This document shows, in pieces, positions 11,393 through 54,819 of a stretch of 64,000 nt of DNA. A program made the translations under genes and the position numbers. Source of the stretch: a virus; the IMG/VR virus record IMGVR_UViG_3300032053_000047, positions 1 to 64,000 of that record, one strand, 5' to 3'. The stretch's first letter is position 1. Each line of letters begins with the position of its first letter. Below the pieces are notes generated by a model. That model did not search any database and was not told the DNA's origin. It saw only the letters and a list, made by a program, of their open reading frames with translations.

Positions 11393-12346
11393 ATGGCTTC
11401 TCAGACAGAGCCTATTTCAACGTATGATGTCCCCAATTATGTAGGCGAGGTTCTTTACCTCGGCGCTACACTGGGGAAAAGCCCACTCCTGTCCATGGCG
11501 GGCCTGACAGACGGTTATGAAACATCCCAGTGGAATGAGTATCCAATGGGCAACGTCCTCAGTGGTAACGCTGCCGCGCAGAACGTCGTAACTGAAGATG
11601 CTTCTATTGCGGCTATTGCCAGAACCAGTTATGCCGCAGCCCAGGCAACGAACTTCCTGGAAATCCACGACGTATCATACGTCCAGTCATACGCCCGCGC
11701 AGCCCTTCAGGGCGGAATCAGCGGCGTGGCTATCAATGGTGCAAAAGCTGCCGTGATTGGCAGCCTGGAAACCCAGCGGACAGCCCACCTAAAACAGTTG
11801 GCGTGTGATCTCGAATTCTCAGCCCTCCGCGGCACGGTCCAAGCATGGACGAATGCTGCTACTGCCGGCGCGACCCGCGGTCTCGTAACCGCCATCGAAG
11901 CCGGGTCCGAAACTGCTGCGGCTGGCGCATCGCTATCCAAGACGTTGATCGACACCGAGATCGCGCGTATGGCCGCGGCGGGTGCCGAGTTCACTCGCAT
12001 GGTGATCGCGTGCAACGCTCACCAAATGCAGATGTTGAACACCTTGTACGGGTTTGCCCCCCAGAGCATTACCGTTGCGGGCGTCCAACTTCAGCAGATC
12101 TGGTTGCCAATTGCGGGCCAGTGCGGCGTGGTCTATGACTCCGTACTCGCAACCGACGACCTAGTGTTCGTGGACATGGAGCATTTCCGGCCCGTGTTCG
12201 GAATCGTGCCGGGCAAACCGCCGATCTTCGTCGAACCGCTCGGCAAGATCGCGGCAGGCGAACAGGAACAGTTGTACTGCCTGTTCGGCATCGACTACTC
12301 GAACATCATCTTCCACGGCATGGTGAGCGGACTTGCCACGTCGTAA
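11393..12346 (+). CDS. Major capsid protein
   Basis: A 317-residue protein at the capsid position, with the DUF5309/SU10-type HK97-fold features: an N-terminal strand-rich arm (EPISTYDVPNYVGEVLY), an Ala-rich spine helix around residues 95-130 (RAALQGGISG...ETQRTAHLKQLACDLEFSAL), and a C-terminal strand region with VDMEHFRPVFG. The ribosome site GGAG lies before the ATG. It is followed by a GC-rich hairpin. Confidence 0.85.
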   Translation: MASQTEPISTYDVPNYVGEVLYLGATLGKSPLLSMAGLTDGYETSQWNEYPMGNVLSGNAAAQNVVTEDASIAAIARTSYAAAQATNFLEIHDVSYVQSYARAALQGGISGVAINGAKAAVIGSLETQRTAHLKQLACDLEFSALRGTVQAWTNAATAGATRGLVTAIEAGSETAAAGASLSKTLIDTEIARMAAAGAEFTRMVIACNAHQMQMLNTLYGFAPQSITVAGVQLQQIWLPIAGQCGVVYDSVLATDDLVFVDMEHFRPVFGIVPGKPPIFVEPLGKIAAGEQEQLYCLFGIDYSNIIFHGMVSGLATS

Positions 12347-12367
12347 GCAGTAAACAGTTGAAGTGCG

Positions 12368-12391
12368 GCGGGGTCTAATAATAGGCCCCGC
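12368..12391 (+). terminator. GC hairpin after the major capsid gene
   Basis: GCGGGGTC, an 8-base loop, then GGCCCCGC form an 8-bp stem. There is no U-run after it, so a partial terminator or 3'-end stabiliser is more likely than full termination. Similar hairpins follow 12863, 13955 and 25510. Confidence 0.5.
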
Positions 12392-21191: not shown

Positions 21192-21463
21192 CTGCAACAG
21201 AAATTAGCGCACTCAATGCGACCGTAGACAAAATCCTCGGGGTTCTACAGGGTGAACCCGGCGAAACGGGACTTGTCAGTGAAGTTAAGGCTATTGGGGT
21301 AGAACTCGCTCAGCAAGGAGTCCGCCTTGAAATACACCTAACGGCACACAAGGAATGCGATACTAAAAAAGAAACTCGCATGTGGGATATATTTAAGACC
21401 ATACTTATTCCGCTTGCCGCCGGACTAGTTAGCGCAGCCCTCGTAGTATGGGGTCTAAAATGA
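21188..21463 (+). CDS. Small membrane protein with C-terminal TM segment
   Basis: A 91-residue protein with an amphipathic N-terminal part and one C-terminal membrane span (TILIPLAAGLVSAALVVWGL). The layout resembles XhlA-type phage membrane proteins, though the true lysis genes appear to lie at 38-41 kb. ATGA overlaps couple it to both neighbours. Confidence 0.55.
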   Translation: MTATEISALNATVDKILGVLQGEPGETGLVSEVKAIGVELAQQGVRLEIHLTAHKECDTKKETRMWDIFKTILIPLAAGLVSAALVVWGLK

Positions 21464-23337
21464 GCGCCCAGCGGGGTCGCCCCAACCTGCCGCCCGACGT
21501 GACGCGCGCGCAACAGGAACTTATCCGGGCATACCGAAATGCTACCCGGCGGCTAGAACGGCAACTCTCAGGAGCCGCCCTTACGGATTTCCAGCGGTTC
21601 CGAATCACCGAACAGCTTCAACAGATCCGAGTTATCATTGCAGCCCTTAATCAACAGGCCCAGGATGCCGCACAGCGCATGATCGGCCCATCCTATAGGG
21701 TAGGGATCAAACTGTCCGCGGACGCCCTTGTACGGGCTGGTATCGAAGTGAATATGGGCAATGTATTGGCTACTGAGGCTATTGCGGTTGTTGCCGATCA
21801 AATGGCGATGGATCTTATTGCTGCGAATGCCAGTTTGGAAATACAGGCGCGGCGGTTTTTGCGGCTTACGCAACAAAAGTTGCTCACTGAACAACAGATT
21901 AACCAAGGGATCGCCCGAGGGATTATCGAAGGTGAAACCCGGAAACAGGTGAGCGACCGGCTGTTGAAGCAGCTTAAGGGGAAGATGGAAGAAGGCGCAC
22001 GGATCGTTATCAAGTGCAAGGATGGCAAACTCCGGTCCTACGACCCGGCCCAATATGCCGAACTTGTAGCACGCACGCGCACGCGGGAAGCCGTTACGCA
22101 GGGGACGATCCGCACCGGCATGGACTATGAAGTCTACCTATTTCAGGTATCCGTGCATTCCGGGGCGTGTGAGATGTGTATCCCGTTTCAGGGCAAAGTG
22201 TTTGCTATAGTTGACGGTACGGGGTATCCGATACTAAAGGAAAGCCCCCCGTTTCATCCGAACTGCATTTTGCCGGAAACGCCTGTCTTTGCCCCTGGTA
22301 AGCGGGCCGCATTTGTTGCCGCCTACAACGGCCCGGTAATCGATATTATTCTGTCCAATTCCGCAAGGGTGTCCGTCACCCCGAATCACATGCTCCTGAC
22401 CCCGACCGGGTTCGCTTTTGCAAAGGATCTTTGCGAGGGACAAGAGGTACTCTATAGCACCGCCTTTGAGAATGTAGTATTTGGACACCCAAATAATAAC
22501 AACCGTCCATCCTTCATCGCGGATATAGTCGAATCGCTTTCTAAAACGAGCGGCATGTGCTCCAGTAGCGTGCCAGCTACCTCCGAAGATTTCCACGGCG
22601 ATGGGCGGTTCGTTAATAGCGACATCAATGTTATATGGGCCAATGGCCTTTTGCGAAGTAATATCGAATCCAAATCGGGCGAGGTGCCGAGCGAGAACGA
22701 TTTCGATGGGACTGACATTGCTCTGTTTGGTCTCACGTGTTGTCGCACGACGGCAAAGATGCTCAAAACTTTGGCGCTTGCCGCGGACGGCATCATGGGC
22801 GGCTTTCGTGATGGCTGCGCGGCCCTCTGGCCCCATCTTCGCCATGGCAATTTTGGTGGCTTCGCTTCCAGTACGCTTCTTAATTTTACCCCTGCGGAGA
22901 ATTCCATCAATGACGCACTGAATTGTTCCGAATTCACGCATCAATTCTCCTACACTCTCTCCGGCACAATAGCGCGAGCAAATCTCATTCGCGGGCAACA
23001 ACAGTCCCGGCCTTTGATTTCTCTTGATGCCCCGCCTTTTCAGGATGCCGTTAACATCAACGGGAAATTGTTTCTTGATTTCCTTAAACGGAATTCTAGC
23101 CAAATAGGCGTTGCACACGTCGTCTTTAAGGGAATTCGGCAATATTCTGGGCATGTCTATGATCTCCAAACTGATTCATCATTATACCTATGTAATGGCA
23201 TAGTATCAAGTAATTGCGGCCATGTCCTAACTGCCTTTATCCCCCGCGACGACGAACAAAACACCGCCCTGCGCCAGTTTTCCCACACCCGGGGGGGCGT
23301 TGCAGATTATGAGGAATACCAGGCCGCAATAGCTTAA
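21460..23337 (+). CDS. MuF-like minor head protein interrupted by an intein
   Basis: A 625-codon frame. The exteins form a MuF-type head protein of about 308 residues: helical N-terminus, RTREAVTQGTIRTGM, then CEMCIPFQGKVF and the family signature FHPNC. The intein (residues 269-585) splits that signature exactly at HPN|C, and the C-extein is the last 40 residues beginning CGHVLTAF. The ATG at 21460 overlaps the preceding stop and is preferred over 21448. MuF proteins sit inside the head near the portal. Confidence 0.85.
   Translation: MSAQRGRPNLPPDVTRAQQELIRAYRNATRRLERQLSGAALTDFQRFRITEQLQQIRVIIAALNQQAQDAAQRMIGPSYRVGIKLSADALVRAGIEVNMGNVLATEAIAVVADQMAMDLIAANASLEIQARRFLRLTQQKLLTEQQINQGIARGIIEGETRKQVSDRLLKQLKGKMEEGARIVIKCKDGKLRSYDPAQYAELVARTRTREAVTQGTIRTGMDYEVYLFQVSVHSGACEMCIPFQGKVFAIVDGTGYPILKESPPFHPNCILPETPVFAPGKRAAFVAAYNGPVIDIILSNSARVSVTPNHMLLTPTGFAFAKDLCEGQEVLYSTAFENVVFGHPNNNNRPSFIADIVESLSKTSGMCSSSVPATSEDFHGDGRFVNSDINVIWANGLLRSNIESKSGEVPSENDFDGTDIALFGLTCCRTTAKMLKTLALAADGIMGGFRDGCAALWPHLRHGNFGGFASSTLLNFTPAENSINDALNCSEFTHQFSYTLSGTIARANLIRGQQQSRPLISLDAPPFQDAVNINGKLFLDFLKRNSSQIGVAHVVFKGIRQYSGHVYDLQTDSSLYLCNGIVSSNCGHVLTAFIPRDDEQNTALRQFSHTRGGVADYEEYQAAIA
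22234..23154 (-). CDS. Vsr-type homing endonuclease encoded antisense to the intein
   Basis: A 306-residue protein from ATG 23154, preceded by GGAG nine bases upstream. Two helix-turn-helix units occupy about residues 7-45 and 55-90, then a linker with PEGRAAITKAAHDAVRG. A Vsr/DUF559-type nuclease domain follows: PIEIVLARHL, YNIDVAI with the catalytic Asp, and AVEIFGGSWH with Glu and His. After it comes a tail of about 60 residues that is the complement of the intein N-terminal domain and runs 30 bases into the extein. It probably cuts intein-less MuF alleles. Confidence 0.8.
   Translation of the reverse strand: MPRILPNSLKDDVCNAYLARIPFKEIKKQFPVDVNGILKRRGIKRNQRPGLLLPANEICSRYCAGESVGELMREFGTIQCVIDGILRRGKIKKRTGSEATKIAMAKMGPEGRAAITKAAHDAVRGKRQSFEHLCRRATTRETKQSNVSPIEIVLARHLARFGFDITSQKAIGPYNIDVAINEPPIAVEIFGGSWHATGAHAARFRKRFDYIRDEGWTVVIIWVSKYYILKGGAIEYLLSLAKILCKSEPGRGQEHVIRGDGHPCGIGQNNIDYRAVVGGNKCGPLTRGKDRRFRQNAVRMKRGAFL
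22264..23214 (+). other. Intein in the MuF gene (sense strand)
   Basis: 317 codons from Cys1 to Asn. Block A is CILPETPVF; block B VSVTPNHMLLT with the TxxH pattern; block F YSGHVYDLQT; block G NGIVSSN followed by extein Cys+1. The penultimate residue is Ser, not the usual His. Between blocks B and F lie about 220 residues with no LAGLIDADG or HNH motifs. That stretch reads as the in-register complement of the endonuclease on the other strand. Confidence 0.85.
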
Positions 23338-42860: not shown

Positions 42861-42872
42861 AAGGAGACGGAA

Positions 42873-43151
42873 ATGGAAACGCGGAAATGCCCAAACGTAT
42901 TATGCCCCGGCACAATGTACTACTCTGACGACATGGAAAACCCGTTTGCCGGGACCGATGATCACACCCCATTTTGGCAGTGCGAGTTATGCGGGGATTG
43001 TCAGCCGGAATACACCGCGGCACAGAAACGCCTAATCGAAGAACGGAGGCTAAACTCCCGCTGGGAAAATGCGACTGAGCATGAAATGGCGACAACCCCG
43101 GAAACCGAGGAATACTCGGACGAACGGTACGACCAGGAGAATCAGGACTAA
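42873..43151 (+). CDS. Zinc-ribbon protein
   Basis: A 92-residue protein with CPNVLCPG and, 30 residues on, CELCGDCQPEY; four cysteines suit one zinc ribbon. The C-terminus is acidic. Unknown function. Confidence 0.6.
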   Translation: METRKCPNVLCPGTMYYSDDMENPFAGTDDHTPFWQCELCGDCQPEYTAAQKRLIEERRLNSRWENATEHEMATTPETEEYSDERYDQENQD

Positions 43152-43164
43152 TTCCGCCCCGCCC

Positions 43165-43210
43165 GCTGTCCCCTACGGAGGGCCGACGTGGACGCTACGC
43201 CCGCGAGGGA
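43165..43210 (+). repeat. Intergenic unit with hairpins, copy B, including GNRA hairpin 6
   Basis: GTCCCCTACGGAGGGCC, CGACGTGGACGC and CGCCCGCGAGGGAG repeat copy A with small changes; the last hairpin has lost its final C. Confidence 0.5.
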
Positions 43211-43226
43211 GAGTGGAACATGGAAC

Positions 43227-43682: not shown

Positions 43683-43750
43683 CGCCGCGCACACTGCCCC
43701 AGGCGGGGCGACCGCGGACGGGATAGGGATAGAGCGCCACGGGAAACAAC

Positions 43751-43764
43751 GCGCCGGAGAGCGC
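43751..43764 (+). repeat. RBS-proximal hairpin, diverged copy
   Basis: GCGC-CGGAGA-GCGC before AAAGGGAGA and the ATG at 43781. The stem sequence has changed but stem, loop place and spacing remain. A similar GCGCC/GGCGC hairpin (about 43920) precedes the next gene. Confidence 0.45.
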
Positions 43765-43780
43765 AAAGGGAGACGTGAAC

Positions 43781-43915
43781 ATGATTAAGCATTGCACACA
43801 ATGCGGGGAAAAACACGAAGAATTAGAACCCTGTCCAGAACTAATTCTTAAGAAATGGTTCCCCGGTGTGAAAGGAATCGGGCCGGATGGGAAGCCGTTA
43901 AAAGGTATTTGGTAA
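43781..43915 (+). CDS. Small zinc-knuckle protein
   Basis: A 44-residue ORF starting MIKHCTQCGEKHEE. It has one CxxC and a third Cys (PCPEL), with AAAGGGAGA upstream. The C-terminus includes KWFPGVKGIGPDG. No family assigned. Confidence 0.5.
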   Translation: MIKHCTQCGEKHEELEPCPELILKKWFPGVKGIGPDGKPLKGIW

Positions 43916-43944
43916 CAACGCGCCACGGCGCGGAAAGGCAGAGG

Positions 43945-44563: not shown

Positions 44564-45661
44564 TCAGGTAAATCGCGCCTGCGCCGCGTCTAATTTCGGC
44601 TTGCAATTTCCGGGGTGGACGTAGTGCATTGTCATGCGGATATCGCTATGCCCGGCCTGTCTCTGGACATCCGGCAGGGGTATTCCCCAAACGTTGACGG
44701 CCAGACTGCAAAACGTGTGGCGGAGGTCTTTGACGTTGCACCGCCGCTCGAATCCCTCAGCTGCCAATGCCCGCGTGAGGCCATTGTAGAGGATGTTGTT
44801 CGTGAGGGGATATCCCTCAGTCCCAGTAAACACAATTTCACTACTGATCCCCCGCACCCGTTCCCGTTCCAGGACAGCAATCACGGCCCCGCTGATTTCA
44901 AATGTTGCTAGTCGCCGCGCCTTCTTTTGAGTCCGTTCCACAATTCCCGTTTTCAGGTTTACTTGCCGCCATTTCAGCGCCGTCGCGTCCGAAGGCCGCT
45001 GGCCAGTCAATCCAATCCATCGGATACAATTGGCAATGTGTGGCGCTCGTTGGGCGACAATTTCAAAGACGCGGGCGAGTTGATCCTCAGTCAGCGGCCA
45101 GATCTCCGGTTCCTCGCATTTCGGCAGGAGCCATTTGCGGATCGGCGACTGGCCTATCAGTTCCCGATCCACAGCGGCGTTCAGACAGGCCCTCAACATC
45201 ATCAGCCGGTTCCGCGTCGTCTTGGCCGCATGGCCATCCCGGATGCGGCTGTCGGCGGCCCAGGCGTCCACAGTAGCCGGTGTGAGTTGGGATACCCGCC
45301 CGATATTGCGGCCCGCGCAGAATTGTTGGAAATCATATAGGACGCGGTTCGCCAGCGCGATTGTGCCGTCCGCAGCATTTTTCGCAGGTAGCACTTTATC
45401 TACATAATGGTCAACAATATCCCGAATACGGGGCCCCGCCGGGTCTTCCCCATCGGTCTGGGCCTCAGCAGCATGGTCTGTTATGAGTGCCGGCACGACT
45501 TCTTCCTTATATTGAGTCAGTGCGGCGTGGGCCTCAGCCTCCGACTGGGCGTTTATAAGCCGCCGGGTCCGCTCCTTTGTCCCCGGCCAATAAGTACTAA
45601 TCCCCCAGCGGTTTTTGGCGCGGTTGCGGTAGAGTGAGACGATAGGTTCGTTACGGCGCAT
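44564..45661 (-). CDS. int: Tyrosine recombinase / integrase
   Basis: A 365-residue integrase. The N-terminal arm-binding and core-binding domains cover about residues 1-170. The catalytic domain has the first Arg in LTGQRPSDA, the second Arg in VKDLRHTFCS (Lys in place of the usual first His of HxxR), AGHSDIRMTMHYVH with the third-box His and the nucleophilic Tyr. It would catalyse integration at the tRNA-Ser-like attP just downstream. ATG 45661 is preferred over TTG 45688. Confidence 0.9.
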   Translation of the reverse strand: MRRNEPIVSLYRNRAKNRWGISTYWPGTKERTRRLINAQSEAEAHAALTQYKEEVVPALITDHAAEAQTDGEDPAGPRIRDIVDHYVDKVLPAKNAADGTIALANRVLYDFQQFCAGRNIGRVSQLTPATVDAWAADSRIRDGHAAKTTRNRLMMLRACLNAAVDRELIGQSPIRKWLLPKCEEPEIWPLTEDQLARVFEIVAQRAPHIANCIRWIGLTGQRPSDATALKWRQVNLKTGIVERTQKKARRLATFEISGAVIAVLERERVRGISSEIVFTGTEGYPLTNNILYNGLTRALAAEGFERRCNVKDLRHTFCSLAVNVWGIPLPDVQRQAGHSDIRMTMHYVHPGNCKPKLDAAQARFT

Positions 45662-45935
45662 GGGGCGACTCGGTTTTGACGACTTCAACTACGTCATCAC
45701 CCGGCGCAGCATCGACTATCCGCATACTCATTTTTATCTTGTTTGGGGCGCATGGTAGGGCGGTTAGGACGACCTTTTTCCCAGCTTCCCGCAATGTGTC
45801 CGCGGGGAGTTTATCCGGCCATGCCCGTATGTGGCGGCGGTGGATTTCCGCATAGGTTTCCCGTTGCGTTCGGGCGATGACCTCCCCTTCACGTTCACGG
45901 AATGAACGGGTATCAGGCGGATCTTGCCGGATCAT
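45651..45935 (-). CDS. Hypothetical protein upstream of the integrase
   Basis: A 94-residue soluble protein, charged, with a C-terminal acidic strand region. Its ATG overlaps the stop of the 44-residue membrane protein (ATGA), which decides the start, and its own end overlaps the integrase start by 11 bases. No family recognised. Confidence 0.55.
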   Translation of the reverse strand: MIRQDPPDTRSFREREGEVIARTQRETYAEIHRRHIRAWPDKLPADTLREAGKKVVLTALPCAPNKIKMSMRIVDAAPGDDVVEVVKTESPHAP

Positions 45936-49095: not shown

Positions 49096-49121
49096 CCGCC
49101 GCTGTGTGTGATAGTTGAATC

Positions 49122-49270
49122 AAGGCAGGCACGGCGGGGCCGGGCATGGCGGGGCTCAACGGGGTTCGGCTTGGCGCGACTTGGCGAGATAGGCTTGGCA
49201 GGCGCGGTTCGGCGGGGCGGGGCGGGGCGGGGCGGGGTATGGCACGGTTCGGCAAGGCATGGCAGGCATG
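49122..49270 (+). repeat. 5-nt-period GGC-rich repeat, block 2
   Basis: About 30 pentamer units of GGC type, including a perfect run of four CGGGG, lie between the genes at 48424 and 49311. It is preceded by AGTTGAATC. Same design as block 1, so the two blocks bracket one gene. Confidence 0.7.
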
Positions 49271-49310
49271 AAACGGTTGAGTGAGCGAAACGACGAAAGG
49301 ACAGAACGGA

Positions 49311-50463: not shown

Positions 50464-50520
50464 CCTCCTTCCGCCGCGAGCCGGGGCGCGGAGTAGTACC
50501 CCGGCATAGAATTGAACTGT

Positions 50521-50593
50521 AGTCGTGTAGCGCAATAGGTAGAGCGCGGCGCTGTTAACGCCGAGGTTGTAGGTTCGAGTCCTACCGCGACTG
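50521..50593 (+). tRNA. tRNA-Asn (GUU)
   Basis: Acceptor AGTCGTG/CGCGACT, anticodon stem CGGCG/CGCCG with loop CTGTTAA (anticodon GUU), T-arm GTAGG, TTCGAGT, CCTAC. All standard apart from a mismatch in the D-stem. No CCA is encoded. TTGAAC lies three bases upstream of its 5' end. Confidence 0.85.
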
Positions 50594-50618
50594 TTAAAAG
50601 TTGAAGAACCGATCCCCG

Positions 50619-50716
50619 GTGTGCCGCTGGGCACGTTCATCCTCACCATCCAACCCAGTAGCCGATTCACTCAGATAGGGACGCGCCACCCTCGCGTCCC
50701 ATGCTCAGCGGCACAC
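50619..50716 (+). ncRNA. Structured RNA with 10-bp terminal stem
   Basis: GTGTGCCGCT (50619-50628) pairs perfectly with AGCGGCACAC (50707-50716). Inside, GGGACGCG/CGCGTCCC (50678-50700) forms an 8-bp hairpin with a 7-base loop. TTGAAG lies 12 bases before the 5' strand. There is no T-loop sequence, so it is not a normal tRNA. Unknown class. Confidence 0.5.
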
Positions 50717-50740
50717 TATAAAAATTGAATAGCTTTTTGA

Positions 50741-50802
50741 TGTGCTGGGAAATGGTATAGCGGAGTTTGATAGTAAACAGGTTTCGATTCCTGCCAGCAC
50801 AT
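50741..50802 (+). ncRNA. Minimal tRNA-like RNA (62 nt)
   Basis: TGTGCTG pairs perfectly with CAGCACA, and the flanks extend the helix to about 13 bp. A T-arm-like CAGG, TTTCGATT, CCTG is present but has one extra loop base. The middle has a GTTT/AAAC stem with a 6-base loop. It is about 12 nt shorter than a normal tRNA; no anticodon can be assigned with confidence. ATTGAATAG lies upstream. Confidence 0.5.
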
Positions 50803-50973
50803 CGAGTTTGCGAGGATGTCACCGGGATTACCCGATGGCATTTCCGCAAAGTGGCGTCACCTGCCGTGCTCCGTTTATGCCTAGGCTGAGCGAAGTGGTG
50901 AGGGAACGCCGCCAGACTAGGCGTGACTTAATGCCACGGTTCAGAGTAACCGAGGCGAAGAAATTGAATAGTT

Positions 50974-51167
50974 CTTGATGTGTTGCGGCGTGGTGGGACA
51001 CGCTAAAAGGCGGCAACGACCGGCTAGAACCACAAAGGGGTAGTGACCCTTTCGATTGTCGGTAAGTAGGTGAGCTACTTGTAAGACGAGCGCGGAAAGT
51101 GCCGATATTGACCCGCGCATGTGGAACCGAACAAACGGGCAGGTTCAAATCCTGCCAGCGCATCGAG
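50974..51167 (+). ncRNA. tRNA-capped RNA with a large insert
   Basis: CTTGATGTGTTG (50974-50985) pairs with CAGCGCATCGAG (51156-51167) using only wobbles as exceptions. A D-arm-like GCGTG/CACGC (50988-51003) and a canonical T-arm GCAGG, TTCAAAT, CCTGC (51139-51155) are in place. Between them are about 135 nt in place of the anticodon arm, with AAAGGG/CCCTTT, AAGTAG/CTACTT and GCGCGG/CCGCGC hairpins. tmRNA has a like plan, but none of its conserved 5' sequence is present. Confidence 0.5.
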
Positions 51168-51258
51168 TTTTTGCCCGCCGAATGAGGGCAGTAGAACGCG
51201 AGAGAGGAGGTGGTCCGCGAGACGGCTAAGCGGACCCCATGACACAGTTGAATCTGAT

Positions 51259-51360
51259 CTTTGGCGTGCTACCGGCTACCCTTGCGGAACATGCGCGAAC
51301 CCTGCGGACTGTCTAGACAGCGCCGTAGCAAGTATGCACTAACGGTTTAGCACACCAAAG
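51259..51360 (+). ncRNA. Structured RNA with 13-bp terminal stem
   Basis: CTTTGGCGTGCTA (51259-51271) pairs with TAGCACACCAAAG (51348-51360), one mismatch. A CTGT/ACAG palindrome sits in the middle. No T-loop. TTGAATC lies five bases upstream, and TTTTTG follows, so transcription could stop there. Confidence 0.5.
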
Positions 51361-51482
51361 TTTTTGCGGCCTGTGATGCCGCGAGCGGCGACACCAAGGA
51401 TTCAATCTAGCCGCATAGTGCGTGCGGTGCCGGGTTTGTGGAAACTTTCCCGGCACCGCCCTCCCCAACGAAAGGAGAACTA

Positions 51483-51839
51483 ATGTTCAGGTTAACGACA
51501 AACGACGATACTGTTGTGTTTCAGGTCCCGTGTGGAGAGGGAACTATCCGCTTTGAATGTTATTGCGGAAGCGGAGGCGCTGCATTAGTCGTTGCTAATG
51601 CACTTCGCAATGCCCATCCGGTTCTCTTCGACACCATTGAAACGGAACCCCATGTGTTAAAAAGTGAAGGGGATTGGCTACGTGAACGGTTACATGAAGT
51701 ACAGACGAAAATGGATCGTGCCGTGGCGGAGATACGCGATTTGGAGAAGATAGCGAAAAATACATCACCTATCCCTACACTTCAAGAATTTGGATTGTTT
51801 CGAGACGCCGTGTTCGCGGCGGTGAAAAGAATCGAATAG
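51483..51839 (+). CDS. Hypothetical protein within the RNA region
   Basis: A 118-residue protein with strands in the first 50 residues (TVVFQVPCGEGTIRFECYCG) and a coiled coil in the second half. AAAGGAGAA precedes ATG 51483. The only protein gene inside the 2-kb RNA region. Not recognised. Confidence 0.6.
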   Translation: MFRLTTNDDTVVFQVPCGEGTIRFECYCGSGGAALVVANALRNAHPVLFDTIETEPHVLKSEGDWLRERLHEVQTKMDRAVAEIRDLEKIAKNTSPIPTLQEFGLFRDAVFAAVKRIE

Positions 51840-51858
51840 TTACCAAAGTTGAATTCGT

Positions 51859-51947
51859 GGGCGAGTGGCGAAATTGGCAAACGCAGCGGACTTAAAATCC
51901 GCTACCCCGGCCAGGGGTTTTTGTAGGTTCGAGTCCTGCCTCGCCCA
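51859..51947 (+). tRNA. tRNA-Leu (UAA)
   Basis: Acceptor GGGCGAG/CTCGCCC, D-arm GCG...CGC, anticodon stem GCGGA/TCCGC with loop CTTAAAA (anticodon UAA), a long variable arm (CCCC...GGGG) as expected for Leu, and T-arm GTAGG, TTCGAGT, CCTGC. 89 nt; CCA not encoded. TTGAAT ends four bases before the mature 5' end. Confidence 0.9.
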
Positions 51948-52017
51948 TCTTATGAATTATTAAACTATTAGGTTTTGGCTAATAGTTGCCCCGGAGAGTA
52001 CGGGTATACAGTTGAAT

Positions 52018-52362
52018 ATTTTTAGGTGTGCTGTGGCCGAAGGAATGCGTGACGGGCGCGAGAAATCGCGTTGGTAGTGCGACGACGGCCCCAACGGTCG
52101 GCTCAATGATGGAGTAAGGAACAAACCCCTAGAGCAGCAAGCAGGTCAGCCGGGCGCGGGTGATTTTACCCGTAATGACAGTACAGGCCGAGATAATCGC
52201 CTGATAGCCATAGTATACCGATTTCCCAGCAGCGACCTTGCGGGGCCGTGCGGTGACATGGCGTAGCTCTCCCATAGAGAACGTCATGGCATCGTTACAT
52301 CAACCCGTTCCGGTTCTATCACGGCTGAGGCCGGACGCCGCTCGGATAACAGTTGACGGGTA
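52018..52362 (+). ncRNA. Long structured noncoding RNA candidate
   Basis: No ORF is supported here. After TTGAATA (52012) comes GTGTGCTGTGGCCGAAGG, which looks like the 5' half of a class II tRNA. Then follow a CGCGA-GAAA-TCGCG hairpin, CGGGT/ACCCG, and TCTC/GAGA hairpins. It might be one RNA with the element at 52363-52476. Large phage RNAs such as GOLLD and ROOL also lie near tRNAs, but I cannot match their cores by eye. Confidence 0.4.
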
Positions 52363-52476
52363 TCGGCGGATGTCCCAATGGCACTGTCCAGGAACAGTGG
52401 TCGGGCTTCGTGCGGTGCGTCCCTGGCGGGTGCGTGGGGTTCGATTCCCCAACGCACAGAATGCAGCATCCGCCGA
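52363..52476 (+). ncRNA. tRNA-like RNA with 10-bp terminal stem and T-arm
   Basis: TCGGCGGATG (52363-52372) pairs perfectly with CATCCGCCGA (52467-52476). Inside are CACTGT/ACAGTG and a canonical T-arm TGGGG, TTCGATT, CCCCA followed by ACGCACA. GTTGAC lies ten bases upstream. The T-arm is thus buried within a larger closed structure. GTTTT follows the terminal stem. Confidence 0.45.
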
Positions 52477-53868: not shown

Positions 53869-54819
53869 ATGGGAACTGAATTAGTAGCACAAAATGAACG
53901 TGATCTCGCAACTCGCTCAGACGTATGCCATATGCTGAGCGTTGCCGAGGTCAAGGCGCAAATGGATGCACTTGAAGAACTCATGCGTATCTGCCTGAAA
54001 AAGGGCGATCTTGCCAAGGGCAATGAGGGCGATTACTACACGTTGCCCGGTGGCAAAAAGCCCTGTCTAAGTAAGGCGGGCGCACAAAAAGTAGCGACGA
54101 TGTTTCGCTTTGCCGCATCCTACCCGATCATCGAAGATCTGAGCACAGCGAATGAATCGCGGTATCGCGTCCTGTGCCGCCTCACCCGGCCCGATGGTTT
54201 ATTCGTTGGCGAACAATGGGGCGAGGCCAGTTCGGCGGAATCAAAAAATCGGTGGCGTAAGGCGCTCGATGACGAAGAGTTTGACAGTTCACATGAAGAT
54301 GAGAAACGGATCGTAAAACGCAAGAACCAAAACGGCGACGTGTACGAAGTGAAGCAGATCATGGTAAACCGCGCCGATAGTACAACGAACGTGTTGCCAA
54401 AGGCGCAGAAACGTGCCTACGTTCAAGTTGTGCTTGCCGCCTCGGGCGCGTCCTGCCTGTTTACGAGCGGCCTTGAACCGGATGATCCCGATTCTGCTGG
54501 TGATGGTAACGGCAAAGAGCCGCACAAACCGATTCAGAAACCCCAGGCGAAAAAGGAGTCCGCGCCCGCATCCGACAGTAGTGATATCAAAACGATCCAA
54601 GGCGTGGTTACGCGAGTAGCTGAAAAACCAACAGCCAAGGGTGGTACTCGCTTTGGTGTCTGCATTTTGGATGCATGGTACAACACATTTGATGACAAAA
54701 TCGCGGCAGTGTGCGCAAAGGGCGTGATCATCACGCTGGTCTATAAAGTCGGTCAGTACGGCAACGATATTGTATCGGCGGAAATATTCAACGAACAACC
54801 AGGCGAGGCGGCGGAATGA
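53869..54819 (+). CDS. Putative annealing-associated protein with OB-like C-terminus
   Basis: A 316-residue protein. The N-terminal two thirds follow a phage family found with recombination genes: LPGGKKPCLSKAGAQKVATMF, RYRVLCRLTRPDG, and the STTNVLPKAQKRAYVQVVLAASGAS segment. After a Pro/Lys linker, residues about 235-305 (IQGVVTRVAEKPT... VSAEIF) look like an OB fold. It lies directly before the exonuclease, as an annealing partner would. GAAGGGAG precedes the ATG. Confidence 0.55.
   Translation: MGTELVAQNERDLATRSDVCHMLSVAEVKAQMDALEELMRICLKKGDLAKGNEGDYYTLPGGKKPCLSKAGAQKVATMFRFAASYPIIEDLSTANESRYRVLCRLTRPDGLFVGEQWGEASSAESKNRWRKALDDEEFDSSHEDEKRIVKRKNQNGDVYEVKQIMVNRADSTTNVLPKAQKRAYVQVVLAASGASCLFTSGLEPDDPDSAGDGNGKEPHKPIQKPQAKKESAPASDSSDIKTIQGVVTRVAEKPTAKGGTRFGVCILDAWYNTFDDKIAAVCAKGVIITLVYKVGQYGNDIVSAEIFNEQPGEAAE

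Follow-up and report, generated by a model that had tools for sequence, protein, structure and literature searches.

A candidate tRNA-framed structured RNA in the tRNA island of a temperate phage

Layout of the tRNA island

The DNA analysed here (the window) is a 64,000-nt stretch within a 72,989-bp virus record. It belongs to a temperate bacterial virus whose record includes terminase, portal, head and integrase genes, and the integrase gene (44564-45688) lies about 5 kb from the structured RNA described below as unit C. The reading frames of the phage fit the standard code. Reassignment of a stop codon was considered and rejected, as dropping any single stop lifted coverage only from 0.869 to at most 0.895 and gave no sign of recoding. 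An apparent intein (PF14890, below cut-off) was seen in the minor head protein gene (21448-23337, + strand). Inside that gene, a 311-aa antisense frame (22234-23169, − strand) matched a homing endonuclease PHROG and, slightly under the cut-off, the restriction-endonuclease-like family PF18741. This is possibly a head-gene intein with its endonuclease encoded antisense.

An array of tRNAs and structured units was found at 50.5-52.5 kb, in the order tRNA-Asn, A, B, C, D, small gene, tRNA-Leu, E, F:

50521-50593, + strand: tRNA-Asn(GTT), ordinary; TTGAA at 50512
50618-50717, + strand: unit A, 16-pair end helix and one strong hairpin, no T-arm; TTGAA at 50601; fold z −5.29
50736-50806, + strand: unit B, 13-pair end helix and tiny interior, both ends common to unit C, with a T-arm-like hairpin (8-nt loop, one extra base in the T-loop); TTGAA at 50725; z −3.49
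50806-50960, + strand: structured stretch between B and C; z −3.08 (−3.95 for 50800-50975)
50964-50968, + strand: TTGAA leader of unit C, starting at −10
50974-51167, + strand: unit C, structured RNA with tRNA-type ends (helix, T-arm, fold) and no anticodon arm
51259-51360, + strand: unit D, 13-bp end helix with one C-A mismatch, weak fold (z −1.76); TTGAA at 51248
51480-51839: small gene (ORF) dividing the array
51859-51947, + strand: tRNA-Leu(TAA), ordinary; TTGAA at 51849
52025-52219, + strand: unit E, 13-pair end helix, no T-arm; TTGAA at 52012; an 89% identical unit in the relative phage G006
52363-52476, + strand: unit F, 11-pair end helix and an internal consensus T-arm (52435-52451); TTGAC at 52353; z near background

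Unit C has the same orientation as tRNA-Asn and tRNA-Leu, lies between them and is one member of this array, a point absent from the original prediction. Units A, B, C, E and F were marked by a scan for helices of at least 11 pairs closing 30-220 nt, and unit D was picked up through its leader motif. The scan also returned two more helices, one at 52287/52481 and one formed across units B and C by pairing of their arms. With the B-C cross pairing included, the number of such helices was modestly above that in shuffled sequence (reached by 3/200, 2/200 and 1/100 shuffles).

Structure of unit C

The original prediction had described unit C as a tRNA in which the anticodon arm is replaced by a structured insert, and this anatomy was confirmed. 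The predicted 12-bp end helix, with Watson-Crick and G-U pairs only, is formed by CTTGATGTGTTG (50974-50985) and CAGCGCATCGAG (51156-51167) through 12 contiguous pairs, three of them G-U, of which the outer five exceed the 7-pair acceptor of tRNA type. The T-arm is canonical, as had been claimed, with a 5-pair stem (GCAGG-TTCAAAT-CCTGC, 51139-51155), and abuts the 3′ helix strand as in tRNA. In the minimum-energy fold, the 5′ strand is followed by a D-like arm (GGCGTG-GTGGGA-CACGCT, 50987-51004), and no anticodon arm with a 7-nt loop is present. The fold likewise agrees with the predicted 135-nt structured stretch in its place: the insert (51004-51138) forms a multi-branched domain closed by CCACA (51030-51034)/TGTGG, with additional small hairpins. 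An AAAGGG/CCCTTT hairpin with a 7-nt loop, also part of the prediction, can form at 51034-51052, but in the minimum-energy fold it is displaced by one register and lies within the multi-branched domain.

Compared with a canonical tRNA, unit C has the T-arm beside the acceptor 3′ strand, an acceptor-like helix, a D-like arm and the same leader. It differs in the missing anticodon arm, in the 135-nt insert and in an end helix of 12 rather than 7 pairs. Lacking an anticodon arm, it would be unable to decode.

Chance and fold stability

The consensus T-arm with a 5-pair stem occurred four times in the window, always on the + strand between 50572 and 52448. These four T-arms, within 1.9 kb, are those of unit C, unit F and the two tRNAs. 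Across 300 Markov copies of the window (+ strand), the same T-arm was found twice in total, neither time with at least 11 adjacent pairs, against the 12 pairs of unit C. The T-arm plus helix of unit C is excluded as a product of chance.

The fold of unit C had a z of −4.26, with 0/200 shuffles equally stable, and −4.6 in a separate run, whereas 48 random windows from the phage had a mean z of −0.18 (sd 1.42, minimum −3.4). Units A (−5.29), C (−4.6) and B (−3.49) were beyond the background minimum, and the folds of D and F were near background. Taken by itself, the insert of unit C was mildly stable (z −2.41 for 51007-51139).

The two main rivals to the reading preferred below are that the units are pieces of one larger ornate RNA, or that they are decayed tRNA genes with inserts. 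In the first of these, the units would be domains of one or two large RNAs like GOLLD or ROOL, unit C being one such domain. The 891-nt stretch 50590-51480 folds with a z of −5.31, with 0/20 shuffles as stable. GOLLD and ROOL, large structured non-coding RNAs of unknown function, are described as neighbours of phage tRNA islands, and tRNAs can occur within the GOLLD linker (PMC12286853, in which the GOLLD and ROOL profiles came from Rfam). Unit C likewise lies in a tRNA island. However, the GOLLD and ROOL covariance models gave no match in the array up to E 5, and a search with all Rfam families at the same limit returned only the two tRNAs and one chance hit. Unlike GOLLD and ROOL, the array consists of short units, some with a T-arm, each bounded by its own end helix and leader, and it is interrupted by the ORF at 51480-51839. 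Moreover, G006 has unit E without B, C and D. We consider the ornate RNA unlikely.

Units B and C

Units B and C are alike at their ends only. The 5′ ends match over 26 nt (88% identity, E 2e-5) and the 3′ ends over 32 nt (88% identity, E 1e-7), while their interiors, tiny in B and large in C, are unrelated. The arms differ at three positions, two of which preserve the pair through G-U; the innermost breaks it. An assembly fault around these repeated ends may be present.

The likeness at the ends only is also what would be seen if B and C were decayed copies of one captured tRNA gene, with the middle deleted in B and recombination debris inserted in C, none of it under selection. The extra base in the T-loop of B fits such decay, as does the cassette-like shuffling apparent in nearby phage genes, and integrating elements are described as leaving partial tRNA genes in prokaryotes (PMC9897764). 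On the other hand, only the innermost of the three arm differences breaks a pair, the fold of unit C is far better than background, and the leader was retained before every unit, even E and A, which have no T-arm. Decay is, in our judgement, rather unlikely.

A leader motif common to tRNAs and units

TTGAA or TTGAC was found 9-17 nt upstream of the 5′ end in 8/8 units, both real tRNAs counted, a count that is biased because unit D was chosen by its leader. TTGAA stands 9-10 nt ahead of both real tRNAs, and in most units the consensus was A-N-A-R-TTGAA. Because of the bias through D, the unbiased test omitted D and included the helix at 52287, which has no such leader. The starts tested were those of six helices of at least 11 pairs (five with the motif; the B-C cross helix was excluded) and of the two tRNAs called by ARAGORN (2/2). 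The motif was found 9-18 nt upstream of seven of these eight starts, unit C among them, and 0/200000 random placements matched this. A sigma-70 promoter was rejected as the identity of the leader, since no promoter-like site was found there and the eight leaders had no conserved −35 block.

The motif was seen at two other places in the window. A-N-A-R-TTGAA also stands a few bases ahead of a GC-rich hairpin (12354-12390) that follows the gene at 11393-12346, a hint that the tRNA region is not its only location. A non-coding-looking G-rich stretch with repeats of the GGCA/GGCGGGG type (49108-49290) opens with the leader motif ATAGTTGAAT at 49111.

Unit E in a related phage

Terminase searches identified one close relative, IMGVR_UViG_3300031885_000003 (G006), with 76-78% protein and 72% DNA identity. 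Of the 13 related records, seven had some match at E up to 10, and only G006 had a convincing match to the array. It covered unit E, with 89% identity from TTGAA onward (E 7e-76; next best E-value 0.015). The unit in G006 keeps TTGAA and the 13-pair helix, in which three of 13 pairs differ, being G-U here and G-C there. Among 57 predicted pairs of unit E, seven were changed on one side, none on both sides and none was broken; the structure was derived from the same two sequences, and these counts are thereby biased in its favour. Elsewhere the two phages have segments that are 94-98% identical. As the relatives share recently exchanged segments, the 89% identity does not prove constraint and can also be a result of such exchange. 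Units B, C, D and F had no match in G006. Searches with unit-E patterns returned G006 alone among viral contigs, and another E pattern was found in none of the genome contigs.

Small-gene cassettes at 42870-43225 and 43706-43937 of the window were 94% and 98% identical to G006, compared with 72% for the terminase DNA, and they had a repeated GCCCGCGAGGGCAAGG-like separator between the small genes.

Directly upstream of its unit E, G006 has a stretch closed by a 12-pair helix (L037:6350-6428, here A′; z −4.94), which resembles unit A in place and arms. A hand alignment of A and A′ gave two double changes of U-A to C-G. Its score of 36 fell within those of shuffles (maximum 39, n=300) and MAFFT left the 3′ arms unaligned, so the comparison was not used as evidence and homology was not accepted.

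G006 also has a tmRNA 3′ end (L037:3534-3614, − strand; RF00023, 17.2 bits, E 0.0012, below gathering) near an integrase-like gene, which is probably its attachment site. By the same token, unit C might be the relic of an attachment site, its T-arm and acceptor 3′ strand copying a host tRNA end. The integrase gene of the present phage, however, is some 5 kb off, and an attP site requires the 3′ half alone, yet B and C both have the 5′ strand and the leader. The 3′ end common to B and C had no exact match among the viral contigs searched. Such a relic is very unlikely.

Homologue and coding searches

The original prediction had proposed looking for conserved homologues of unit C. None was found in phages, where the best of the matches listed fell on the two tRNAs, nor in plasmids, in the 13 related records or in 81 further records (a match in 1/50 and in 1/31, in each case to the genuine tRNA portions of the query). 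As no homologue was found, the pairing of unit C is predicted from one genome.

No relatives were found for the neighbouring proteins (53869-54816 and 51480-51836). None of the seven frames over or beside the array matched a PHROG at E up to 0.1, and a minus-strand 111-aa frame over unit C had no tblastn match in phages. A literature search, which reached few subscription papers, found nothing comparable to the array.

Comparison with known RNAs

Only tRNA-Asn and tRNA-Leu had covariance-model matches over the gathering score; unit C had none, and it was not called by ARAGORN at normal thresholds with introns allowed. At 80% with introns, ARAGORN proposes a tRNA-Arg(gcg) with a 105-nt intron, which could be taken as support for a tRNA interrupted in or near its anticodon loop, one of the identities originally suggested. 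In this model C stands in place of U33 and of the purine at 37, the anticodon stem has a mismatch, and other calls at this setting look spurious. Removal of the insert thus left no sound tRNA beyond the sub-threshold Arg(gcg) model. Nor did any group I intron model match up to E 5, and an intron-bearing tRNA is highly improbable.

A reduced or tag-free tmRNA-like molecule had been suggested as well. Unit C does combine tRNA ends with an enlarged middle. tmRNA, however, has no D-stem, whereas unit C possesses one, and RF00023 gave no match in it up to E 5. Permissive ARAGORN calls of tmRNA at 70% were scattered over both strands. We regard this identity as extremely unlikely.

Bacterial Y RNAs (YrlA) are non-coding RNAs with tRNA-like arms, known from phages too. 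Unit C has a tRNA-like module in common with them, but the end helix of YrlA is a protein-binding stem and not an acceptor beside a T-arm. Rfam probably includes a YrlA model; no match to one was found in the array up to E 5. Theta ribozymes are HDV-like double pseudoknots, whereas unit C is a nested closed helix with no Rfam match. They are structured RNAs beside phage tRNAs, located at the tRNA 3′ end and proposed to act in trailer processing (PMC10879173). Identity of unit C with a theta ribozyme was unsupported.

The last of the originally suggested identities, a non-coding RNA with tRNA ends that might serve protection or aminoacylation, finds support as far as anatomy goes: unit C has the T-arm, the end helix and the leader common to real tRNAs, and no anticodon arm.

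Proposed origin and role of unit C

The reading we prefer, tentatively and with somewhat less than even confidence, makes unit C a structured RNA of the phage tRNA operon that has a tRNA frame but does not decode, and that is released by a 5′-end signal common to the true tRNAs. The array would be co-transcribed with the tRNAs. That the real tRNAs have the same leader as the other units suggests one step by which all their 5′ ends are made, and the leader may mark the site of this step in each unit, at the outermost pair of the end helix. The closed helix would then guard both ends, and unit C, unable to read codons, would persist as a stable RNA about 190 nt long. Most likely the interior would be the working part, with the tRNA-like ends serving release and stability; this is the weakest step. 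The ends may perhaps also engage host tRNA-handling proteins.

RNase P is one candidate for the common step. Its protein subunit is described as touching leader bases upstream of −3 (PMC9433436), and TTGAA of the real tRNAs stands in that region. An acceptor with T-stem/T-loop hairpins is reported to suffice as a substrate, natural examples including phage RNAs (PMC11143913). Non-tRNA substrates (4.5S RNA, phage C4 and M3 RNA, tmRNA) have this acceptor and T-stem/T-loop, as does unit C, but in unit C the leader pairs with the trailer. RNase P is slowed where such pairing lengthens the acceptor stem (PMC9433436). The leader points to a 5′ end of unit C near 50974 and the T-arm ruler to one at 50979. 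Since the helix is five pairs longer than a 7-pair acceptor, it is doubtful that RNase P matures unit C at 50979 in the ordinary way. As E and A have no T-arm, a different nuclease or a promoter may be involved instead.

The units of the array are probably an undescribed group of non-coding RNAs on a common tRNA-style frame. A more far-reaching version, which we regard as doubtful, is a modular RNA-display system in which a frame borrowed from tRNA releases and stabilises interchangeable RNA cargoes, unit C being one of them. The frame would consist of the TTGAA leader, the long end helix and, in some units, the T-arm and D-like arm.

Phage tRNA islands contain structured RNAs of unknown purpose, and unit C can be considered one of these, its novelty being the tRNA-type frame. 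A common leader and common ends with differing interiors would describe non-coding RNA cassettes tied to the tRNA maturation route, and the leader motif together with the end helix offers a simple handle for finding more such RNAs. If this reading is true, tRNA genes can become carriers for other RNAs.
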